A stretch of 64,000 nucleotides of DNA from Thermus thermophilus (GTDB lineage Bacteria; Deinococcota; Deinococci; Deinococcales; Thermaceae): contig NZ_AP025158.1 of assembly GCF_019974155.1 (NCBI RefSeq), forward strand, positions 1,922,001 through 1,986,000. The letters are read 5' to 3'. How positions within the stretch are numbered: the first letter of the stretch is position 1; each line of letters starts with the position of its first letter. Positions 25,967 through 29,517 of this stretch are shown one piece after another. Under the pieces are notes generated by a model. It had not been told where the DNA came from. It saw only the letters and a list, made by a program, of their open reading frames with translations, and did not search any database. Both the position numbers and the translations under genes were made by a program.

Positions 25967-26677
25967 CTAGCCCTCCATCCTTTCTCCCAGACGGAAGCGG
26001 TAGCCCAGGTAGGGGAAGGCCATCCAGGTGTCCCCCAAACCGTAGCCCGTCCCCAGGCCGAAGAAGGCGTCCCCCAGGTAGGCGTGGGCGCCCAAAGCGG
26101 GCCAGAGGGCCCCAAAGCCCAAGAAGGCCCAGCCGCCAAGCCAGAGGGCGTAGCCTTCCTCCTCGTAGGCCAGGGCCGCGACCACAGGCGTGCCGACAGG
26201 GATGGGCACGTACAGGCGGAAGCGGCGCTCGGGGTCAAGGGCAGGCGTGAAGGCCTCCCGCCCGGAGGGGTAGTAGCGAAGGCCAATCCCGAAGTGGGGC
26301 CCGCCGACGTCTAGGACCGGGCCCATGCCCTCCAGGAAGACCGCAAAACCCTCGCCCAAGAAGGCCTCGAGGCCCACGAGGCCGGAAACGCGCCTCCCGC
26401 CATGCCCCACCTCCACTCCAAGCCCCAGGTAGTAGGCCCCGGGGAGGCCGAGCCCCATAAAGCCCAAAGGGGAAAAGAGGGGATTGGTAAGCCCTTCCCG
26501 GCGCAGGTGGAGGTGGGCGCTCGCCTCCAGGTTGTGGTCCACCCCCACCCGCCACCAAAACCCAGCGGGAAAGGCCTGACCGAAGCCGAAGACGTTCCTG
26601 TCCACCGCACTAAGGCCGAAAAAGCTCTGGGCCTGGGCCAGGGCCAGGAAGAGGAAAAACGCCGACCACCTTCGCAT
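25967..26677 (-). CDS. Secreted or outer-membrane barrel-like protein, C-terminus cut by a stop codon
   Basis: A 236-residue protein with a signal peptide (MRRWSAFFLFLALAQAQ). The mature part is Gly/aromatic-rich with alternating hydrophobic strands (FWWRVGVDHNLEASAHL, YYLGLGVEVGHGG, GFGALWPALGAHAYLG), resembling an outer-membrane beta-barrel. The reading frame stops at TAG 25967-25969, but the same frame continues for 34 sensible codons to a second stop at 25862 (see the next entry). The function is unknown. Confidence 0.6.
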   Translation of the reverse strand: MRRWSAFFLFLALAQAQSFFGLSAVDRNVFGFGQAFPAGFWWRVGVDHNLEASAHLHLRREGLTNPLFSPLGFMGLGLPGAYYLGLGVEVGHGGRRVSGLVGLEAFLGEGFAVFLEGMGPVLDVGGPHFGIGLRYYPSGREAFTPALDPERRFRLYVPIPVGTPVVAALAYEEEGYALWLGGWAFLGFGALWPALGAHAYLGDAFFGLGTGYGLGDTWMAFPYLGYRFRLGERMEG

Positions 26678-26701: not shown

Positions 26702-26731
26702 TTGACACCCCACCCACCCTCCCCCTAGGCT
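26702..26731 (+). promoter_or_regulatory. Promoter of the lysJ operon
   Basis: TTGACA (26702-26707) and TAGGCT (26726-26731) are 18 nt apart. Initiation would fall at about 26738-26741, i.e. at the ATG of the leader peptide, so that transcript would be essentially leaderless, as is common in Thermus. Confidence 0.7.
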
Positions 26732-26740
26732 TAAGGGGAG

Positions 26741-26764
26741 ATGCGCGCCCGGGGCAAAAGCTGA
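26741..26764 (+). CDS. Candidate attenuator leader peptide MRARGKS
   Basis: ATG at 26741 opens a 7-codon reading frame, Met-Arg-Ala-Arg-Gly-Lys-Ser, stopping at TGA 26762-26764. Two arginine and one lysine codon in seven suit a peptide that senses charged Arg/Lys tRNA. It starts at the predicted transcription start and ends 2 nt before a GC-rich hairpin in front of lysJ. Leader-peptide attenuation has been reported for Thermus lysine biosynthesis, as I recall; its presence here is inference from sequence. Confidence 0.55.
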
Positions 26765-26766
26765 GC

Positions 26767-26814
26767 CCGCCTGGGAAGCCTGGCTTCCCGGGCGGCCCCC
26801 CGGGGCTTTTCTTT
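26767..26814 (+). terminator. Candidate attenuator hairpins before lysJ
   Basis: CCGCCTGGGAAGCC (26767-26780) pairs with GGCTTCCCGGGCGG (26782-26795), with one G-U pair. It is followed by a C6G4 block that can pair with itself (GCCCC/GGGGC) and by TTTTCTTT (26807-26814). The order leader peptide, hairpin, T-run, then a GGAGGTG site (26817) is that of a ribosome-dependent transcription attenuator. Which hairpin terminates cannot be decided by eye. Confidence 0.55.
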
Positions 26815-26828
26815 ATGGAGGTGCGGGC

Positions 26829-28016
26829 GTGGAGACGAGAACCCTGGAAGACTGGCGGGCCCTTCTGGAGGCGGAGAAGACCCTGGACACCGGGGTCTAC
26901 ACCAAGCACGACCTCCTCCTCGTCCGGGGCCAAGGCGCGAAGGTGTGGGACGCCGAGGGGAACGAGTACATAGACTGCGTGGGGGGCTACGGGGTGGCCA
27001 ACCTGGGCCACGGCAACCCCGAGGTGGTGGAGGCGGTGAAGCGGCAGGCGGAAACCCTCATGGCCATGCCCCAGACCCTCCCCACCCCCATGCGGGGGGA
27101 GTTCTACCGCACCCTCACCGCCATCCTCCCCCCGGAGCTCAACCGGGTCTTCCCGGTGAACTCCGGCACCGAGGCCAACGAGGCCGCCCTCAAGTTCGCC
27201 CGGGCCCACACGGGCAGGAAGAAGTTCGTGGCCGCCATGCGGGGCTTCTCGGGAAGGACCATGGGAAGCCTCTCCGTCACCTGGGAGCCCAAGTACCGGG
27301 AGCCCTTTTTGCCCCTGGTGGAGCCCGTGGAGTTCATCCCCTACAACGACGTGGAGGCCCTTAGGCGGGCCGTGGACGAGGAGACGGCGGCGGTGATCCT
27401 GGAGCCCGTGCAGGGGGAAGGGGGCGTGCGCCCGGCCACGCCGGAGTTCCTGAAGGCCGCCCGGGAGATCACCCAGGAGAAGGGGGCCCTCCTCATCTTG
27501 GACGAGATCCAGACCGGCATGGGCCGCACGGGGAAGCGCTTCGCCTTTGAACACTTCGGCATCGTCCCCGACATCCTCACCCTGGCCAAGGCCCTAGGGG
27601 GCGGGGTGCCCCTGGGGGCCGCGGTCATGCGGGAGGAGGTGGCGAGGAGCATGCCCAAGGGGGGGCACGGGACCACCTTCGGGGGGAACCCCCTGGCCAT
27701 GGCCGCCGGGGTGGCCGCCATCCGCTACCTGGAGCGGACGCGGCTTTGGGAGAGGGCCGCGGAGCTTGGCCCATGGTTCATGGAAAGGCTCAGGGAAATC
27801 CCCTCCCCCAAGATCCGGGAGGTGCGGGGCATGGGCCTCATGGTGGGGCTGGAGCTCAAGGAGAAGGTGGCCCCCTATATCGCCAGGCTGGAGAAGGAGC
27901 ACCGCGTCCTCGCCCTCCAGGCGGGCCCCACGGTGATCCGCTTCCTGCCGCCCTTGGTCATTGAAAAGGAAGACCTGGAGCGGGTGGTGGAGGCGGTGCG
28001 GGCGGTGCTAGCATAG
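26829..28016 (+). CDS. lysJ: LysJ: [LysW]-aminoadipate semialdehyde transaminase
   Basis: A 395-residue class III PLP aminotransferase. It has the PLP lysine in [16 protein letters not shown], the phosphate-loop [15 protein letters not shown] and [15 protein letters not shown]. It resembles Thermus LysJ, which transaminates LysW-linked aminoadipate semialdehyde in the alpha-aminoadipate route to lysine; such enzymes are also ArgD-like. GTG at 26829 with GGAGGTG 5 nt upstream. Pairing with LysK downstream supports the lysine assignment. Confidence 0.88.
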
Positions 28017-28020
28017 GGAG

Positions 28021-28220
28021 ATGAGGCGGCGTTACCGCGTGGTGGTGGAGCGGGACGAGGAGGGCTACTTCGTGGCCCACGTGCCTGAGCTCCACGCCCA
28101 CACCCAGGCCCAAAGCTTTGAGGAGCTCCTCCGGCGCCTGCAGGAGGCCATCGCCGTATCCCTGGAGGAGGAGAGGGCGGAAGTCGTAGGCCTGGAGGGC
28201 GCGCTGGAAATTGAAGCGGC

Positions 28221-28224
<4 letters not shown>
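28021..28224 (+). CDS. hicB: HicB-family antitoxin-like protein
   Basis: A 67-residue protein with the HicB pattern YRVVVERDEEGYFVAHVPEL followed by SFEELLRRLQEAIAVSLEE, a degraded RNase H-like fold. HicB proteins neutralise the HicA mRNA interferase. There is no C-terminal DNA-binding extension, so it is a short form. It starts 4 nt after lysJ and overlaps hicA by 4 nt, so it is part of the lysine operon. Confidence 0.85.

Positions 28225-29517
<1,293 letters not shown>

Follow-up and report, generated by a model that had tools for sequence, protein, structure and literature searches.

The lysJ locus and its leader

The region considered here belongs to a window of 64 kb, which is the whole stretch of DNA that was analysed out of a 2.17-Mb Thermus thermophilus genome. 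It contains the lysine genes lysJ and lysK, and a short segment in front of lysJ in which the following features, all on the + strand, can be distinguished.

26702..26707, +: -35 element TTGACA, read from the sequence
26726..26731, +: -10 element TAGGCT, 18-nt spacer after TTGACA
26741..26764, +: putative leader-peptide ORF MRARGKS-stop with a (near-)leaderless start, based on sequence and conservation (26/26)
26750..26752, +: codon 4 of the leader, CGG (Arg); TGG (Trp) in 7/26 relatives
26756..26758, +: codon 6 of the leader, AAA (Lys), the proposed control codon; invariant (26/26)
26767..26795, +: predicted antiterminator hairpin 2:3, in which 26767-26779 pairs with 26783-26795 (13 bp)
26786..26805, +: predicted terminator hairpin 3:4, in which 26786-26792 pairs with 26799-26805; excludes 2:3
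26794..26807, +: short alternative terminator hairpin GGCCC-CCCG-GGGCT of this genome
26807..26814, +: U tract TTTTCTTT, from the sequence
26817..26823, +: lysJ ribosome-binding site GGAGGTG, from the sequence
26829..28016, +: lysJ, [LysW]-aminoadipate semialdehyde transaminase (NF042418 LysJ_Th_th, 803 bits, cut-off 700), start codon GTG at 26829
28432..29517, +: lysK, [LysW]-lysine hydrolase (NF003367, 485 bits, cut-off 363), probably on the same transcript as lysJ

All elements that the initial annotation had placed at 26702-26829, i.e. a promoter, a short MRARGKS frame, hairpins, the run TTTTCTTT and the ribosome site of lysJ, are present in the sequence. The leader codons are ATG CGC GCC CGG GGC AAA AGC TGA, with the ATG at 26741, 9 nt after TAGGCT. 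The promoter is absent from the output of a generic sigma-70 scan because TAGGCT is a -10 element of the Thermus type rather than the E. coli type. Searches with Rfam (lysine riboswitch, T-box and other families) gave nothing relevant between positions 26000 and 27500 at E values up to 1, and no hit at the gathering score in four further loci (L014, L034, L038 and L085).

Two small genes on the + strand (28021-28436) separate lysJ from lysK. The product of the first is weakly HicB-like (E 0.005, below the Pfam cut-off) and that of the second is a HicA toxin family protein (78 bits, cut-off 27), so that the two resemble a toxin-antitoxin pair within the lysine operon. In two other genomes (L025 of G007 and L027 of G003) lysJ carries a frameshift close to a run of G and at nearly the same position in both, for which a homopolymer assembly error is the likely cause.

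Conservation of the reading frame and its lysine codon

The same-genus set consisted of 27 genomes, all of which possess lysJ, and minus-strand loci were reoriented before comparison. In 26 of the 27, lysJ is preceded by TTGACA (which the search pattern demanded), a spacer of 17-18 nt, a TANNNT hexamer (mostly TACCCT, TAGGCT or TAGCCT), 7-9 nt, an ATG-initiated ORF of seven codons and the same hairpins. Recurrence of the whole layout at this position in almost the entire genus indicates that the arrangement is beyond chance. The single genome without it, G010 (locus L005), has a promoter that directly abuts the lysJ ATG, with the whole attenuator missing; since G010 is nested among leader-bearing species, this absence probably represents a loss.

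The predicted peptides (n=26) follow the pattern M-x-x-[R 19, W 7]-[G 25, R 1]-K-[T, S, A or P], and every leader has seven codons plus a stop, with no indel. Because the leaders share ancestry, such sequence counts are not counts of events, whereas changes on the lysJ gene tree are. On that tree the stop position (TGA in 16 leaders, TAA in eight, TAG in two) has undergone at least six changes, each time to another stop, and codons 2, 3 and 7 are free to vary, a pattern expected of a translated ORF of fixed length. Codon 6 is AAA throughout, although AAG predominates among the lysine codons of the window (412 AAG against 53 AAA, 465 codons in total, counted in 39 long ORFs selected by GC3). 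The genome contains one tRNA-Lys(UUU) and one tRNA-Lys(CUU) locus (ARAGORN, overlapping loci merged), and by standard decoding rules AAA is read only by the former. The leader is thus a short, presumably translated ORF that carries a codon for the product of the pathway.

The start of the transcript

The distance between the -10 element and the ATG is 9 nt in 22 of the 26 leaders, 8 nt in one and 7 nt in three, which predicts an RNA that is leaderless or has a 5' untranslated region of about 0-3 nt. According to PMC12340547, Deinococcus ORFs frequently have a -10 motif about 6-7 bp upstream, as described for D. radiodurans; compared with this value the spacing of 7-9 nt leaves room for an untranslated region of 0-3 nt. 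Arrangements of the type TTGAC-N16-21-TANNNT-N5-11-ATG occur 26 times in the T. thermophilus genome, against one match for the backward-read control.

The initial annotation had regarded a leaderless start as unusual for an attenuator peptide. This is contradicted by the hcs leader of the same genome, discussed below, and by the ilvBNC leader of Corynebacterium glutamicum, for which PMC11857589 gives a transcription start one nucleotide before the leader ATG, so that the trait as such is not new.

Mutually exclusive RNA structures

Segment 2 of the leader RNA has the sequence CC[T/C]GGGAAGC, segment 3 is GCTTCCCGGG, and segment 4 is CCCGGG in front of the U tract. Since 2:3 and 3:4 share segment 3, they are mutually exclusive, and the cores of both can be formed in 26/26 leaders: for 2:3 these are the pairs k=-1 to 8, and for 3:4 seven pairs that enclose a loop of 4-6 nt and end 2-3 nt before the U tract. 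As most core pairs do not vary, they are silent as evidence by themselves; both-sided changes are found at outer and apical pairs of 2:3. At k=-3 there are 5 C-G, 12 G-C and 2 G-U pairs (7/26 unpaired), at k=-2 there are 2 C-G and 16 G-C (8/26 unpaired), and at k=10 there are 19 C-G, 2 G-C and 2 G-U (3/26 unpaired); k=2 is U-G in 24 and C-G in 2. These variable pairs give modest backing to the 2:3 helix. A near-copy of the segment also occurs in the first codons, as CCCGGG in 13 leaders, CCTGGG in 6, TCCGGG in 4 and three other forms once each (n=26), which makes an additional 1:2 or 1:4 pairing possible.

The minimum free energy of the stretch is ordinary in comparison to shuffled sequences (z -0.66). 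Thermodynamic stability alone was for this reason dropped as evidence, and the weight was placed on conservation and alternative pairing.

The influence of a ribosome was modelled by folding at 70 C with pairing forbidden in the 5' part as far as 15 nt from the first base of the P site. For a ribosome whose A site holds the Lys codon, the mean probability over the 26 leaders was 0.85 for 2:3 and 0.05 for 3:4; with the stop codon in the A site, 2:3 was near 0 and 3:4 reached a mean of 0.91, exceeding 0.5 in 25/26. The lone exception is the sequence of the window itself. When mask length was varied, the flip occurred at 31-33 nt and fell between the Lys and stop masks, which were 27 and 33 nt, respectively, or 30 and 36 nt if 12 nt are covered past the A-site codon, a footprint taken from PMC4833913. 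At 30 nt the flip is already under way (P(3:4) 0.31; above 0.5 in 7/26), and the outcome thus depends on the footprint that is assumed. An increase of more than 0.5 in the terminator measure was seen in 15/22 distinct real sequences as compared to 56/440 dinucleotide-shuffled copies. In silico, the position of the ribosome at the control codon or at the stop thus selects the structure.

Two aspects of the model deserve mention. When no ribosome is present (unmasked folding), 2:3 forms, and the model consequently predicts read-through in the absence of translation; the trp attenuator of E. coli differs in that it shows no such read-through. Furthermore, in this genome the local 5-bp hairpin by the U tract already forms in part under the mask of the Lys stall. 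The terminator measure of the sequence changes from 0.71 to 0.82 between Lys stall and stop, and 3:4 reaches only 0.39-0.44 at the stop. Due to this competing hairpin, the window sequence is among the weaker and least clean switches.

A probable lysine-dependent switch

The comparison of genomes shows conservation of the ORF, its lysine codon and the RNA segments, together with the mutual exclusion of the two helices. On these grounds we consider it highly probable that the lysJ leader functions as a ribosome-mediated transcription attenuator with a leaderless seven-codon peptide; we infer where the RNA starts, that the ORF is translated, that the outcome depends on the tRNA and that transcription terminates. 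A 70S ribosome would initiate at the AUG, no more than about 3 nt from the 5' end, and synthesize M-x-x-R/W-G-K-T/S. With charged Lys-tRNA(UUU) available, it would proceed to the stop codon and cover the left arm of 2:3, upon which 3:4 and the U tract could form and transcription would halt before lysJ. If lysine is scarce, the ribosome would pause six nucleotides before the stop position, its A site occupied by AAA. Helix 2:3, of which the left arm begins a few nucleotides past the stop codon, would then tie up the terminator's left arm, letting polymerase continue into lysJ and probably lysK. The proposal in the initial annotation of an attenuator with a lysine codon before lysJ is supported by the invariant Lys-6, by the mutually exclusive helices in all 26 leaders and by the in silico flip. 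Among the points against it are that the leader has a single Lys codon, whereas classical leaders have runs of control codons, and that one member of the genus (G010) as well as one genome of a close genus (G071) manage without the leader.

Related leaders offer a useful comparison. An attenuator in the leader of Thermus hcs, the homocitrate synthase gene, was reportedly described by Tsubouchi and coworkers in the Journal of Biological Chemistry in 2005. In the genome studied here the leader before hcs, MLARAKKLGRRGVG-stop, is leaderless, contains lysine codons and shares the arrangement from promoter to ATG; we take it to be that attenuator. A leader with KK at codons 6-7 was found at 27 of 28 hcs loci (24 by pattern and three by eye; the 28th locus is incomplete and was left out of the inspection). 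In these leaders the lysine pair does not change but the Arg at codon 4 does, and lysine is thereby favoured as the signal. The hcs and lysJ leaders have in common a leaderless start after TTGACA/TANNNT, AAA codons, the lysine pathway, their occurrence in the same genome and an antiterminator that overlaps a terminator with a U tract. They differ in that the hcs leader has 14 codons, two AAA and segment 2 inside the ORF, whereas the lysJ leader, with seven codons, one AAA and segment 2 after the stop, falls outside the 14-codon KK type. The lysJ leader would work like the hcs type: it is of the same class but not the same element. The trp and his attenuators of E. coli likewise let a stall decide between antiterminator and terminator, but their leaders are led by a Shine-Dalgarno sequence and carry runs of control codons, as opposed to the single control codon and (near-)leaderless start of the lysJ leader. 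The C. glutamicum ilvBNC system (PMC11857589) also combines leader-peptide attenuation with an almost leaderless start that has no ribosome site, but its leader has 15 codons, responds to branched-chain amino acids, lies in a leader region of 292 nt and is unrelated in sequence.

Arginine and other possible signals

The initial annotation had linked the leader to both lysine and arginine. Within the genus the lysine part is supported, and the arginine part has become weak. A dual attenuator, in which a stall at either Arg-4 or Lys-6 permits read-through and LysJ serves both pathways, is in our opinion rather unlikely, even though it is the most serious alternative. Masks for a stall at codon 4 also yield 2:3 (26/26 above 0.5), Arg is present at this position in 19/26 leaders, leaders with an RKP motif occur in other genera, and LysJ also scores above the cut-off of the argD subfamily model (453 vs 410 bits). 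However, codon 4 is Trp in 7/26, with at least four changes on the lysJ tree; these substitutions argue that arginine is not a required signal in the genus, and strict Arg sensing is weakened for the same reason. In addition, the CCYGGG sequence at codons 3-5 can also be explained by base pairing, and could be kept for that purpose rather than for Arg/Gly.

Outside the genus, 27 distinct lysJ-type loci were examined (L033-L060, L060 being a repeat of L039). Upstream of lysJ, nine of these, from three genera (g2, g3 and g13), have a leaderless leader that contains RKP and is followed by a hairpin; all nine leaders are longer than seven codons. The peptides are MLPRSRKPRHRGLG and MLPRSRKPRHRGSG in g2, MFASSRKPMQREVG and MFASSRKPVQREVG in g3, and MKALKPRKPEVRGKP or a near variant in 5/5 examined loci of g13. 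At the other 18 loci no such leader was found by pattern or by eye, including the two g4 loci whose match to lysJ is strong; the single genome of g5, a near genus (L033), carries a leader before hcs and none before lysJ. In the nine RKP leaders, as in eight hcs leaders that were folded, the antiterminator takes away the base of the terminator stem. As a consequence, the terminator measure of the RKP leaders shifts little (from 0.70-0.89 to 0.99-1.00). With Arg and Lys codons adjacent in these nine loci, a dual Lys/Arg signal is plausible for the distant relatives.

A neat link between pathway and leader codon in the other genera, by which absence of hcs would leave arginine only, is not claimed, since the evidence from lysA and Lys codons conflicts. 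Genes for hcs score above cut-off in tested genomes of g1, g5, g12 and g13 and not in g2, g3 and g4, lysA-type genes do so in g2, g3 and g4 but equally in the hcs-bearing g13, and Lys is retained in the g2 and g3 leaders. The 14-codon g2 leader MLPRSRKPRHRGLG (L034, L035) resembles by eye the hcs leader MLARAKKLGRRGVG, the two having the same length, M-L, R4, K7, R11-G12 and G14 in common; judged from these sequences, it looks as if one attenuator was copied and retuned from KK to RK.

Dominant control at the promoter by a protein such as ArgR, with a secondary role for the leader, seems improbable: involvement of ArgR in Thermus lysine genes was reportedly described by Fujiwara (2006), but a conserved leader would still require another explanation. 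We consider it very improbable that the hairpins are a constitutive weak terminator or RNA-stability element next to an incidental ORF, as the GC-rich region folding overall no better than shuffles might suggest, in view of the stop-to-stop drift, fixed length and invariant AAA of the ORF and the conserved, mutually exclusive helices. Hardly credible is an arrest in which the peptide itself, through its nascent chain or a small molecule and not through tRNA charging, slows the ribosome, since R-G-K, a '+X+' motif known from macrolide-stalling work, or R-R-K is found in 19/26 leaders but W-G-K in 7/26, the peptide has just seven residues, and a lysine codon before a lysine gene is explained without arrest.

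Leaderless leaders in Thermus and implications

Further leaderless leader ORFs precede other genes of the same genome (L064, L065, L066 and L072): MRPRLRNNER lies before an aspartate--tRNA(Asn) ligase gene, MRRAVTLVLDRAGPV before leuC, MRAGLVLSLALVLIVGPAGGRA before ilvB and MWTLGRYFGFYYPAGGALRSA before a DAHP synthase gene. Upstream of mgtE, which encodes a Mg2+ channel, a leaderless ORF of about 11-13 codons was observed in 25/26 examined loci (L164-L189, with the incomplete L190 left out; G000:C1:1059429-1059549 in the T. thermophilus genome). Its peptide is typically M-x-x-x-LPSSP-R-P-stop with a nearly fixed CCCTCGAGTCC, followed by a GGCCGCC/GGGCGGCC hairpin and then GGAGGCCGCC at the ribosome site of mgtE. 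Rfam gave no match for two of these loci (L164 and L169). By analogy with the mgtL leader peptide, the mgtE leader may possibly be linked to Mg2+ or to proline.

A description of the lysJ leader was not found in the open-licence PMC literature, a scope outside which subscription papers mostly fall; the attenuator appears not to have been described before, absence from that collection being no proof of novelty. More tentatively, and with somewhat less than even confidence, it may be ranked among the smallest ribosome-coupled switches (74 nt, seven codons and one decisive AAA) and as one of a Thermus set of leaderless leader-peptide switches that would also cover hcs, leuC, ilvB, DAHP synthase, the AspRS for tRNA-Asn and, with its LPSSP peptide, mgtE.

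If this is true, attenuation in Thermus would as a rule begin with leaderless initiation, a non-amino-acid signal included.

The proposed lysJ attenuator would place lysJ-lysK, the second lysine operon of Thermus, under a lysine gauge of the class that also serves the hcs cluster. The leader would also provide a minimal, single-codon leaderless test case for the question how few codons suffice, in a setting of roughly 70 C and 70S initiation, for which the loss in G010 and the Arg/Trp variation at codon 4 may serve as ready natural comparisons.
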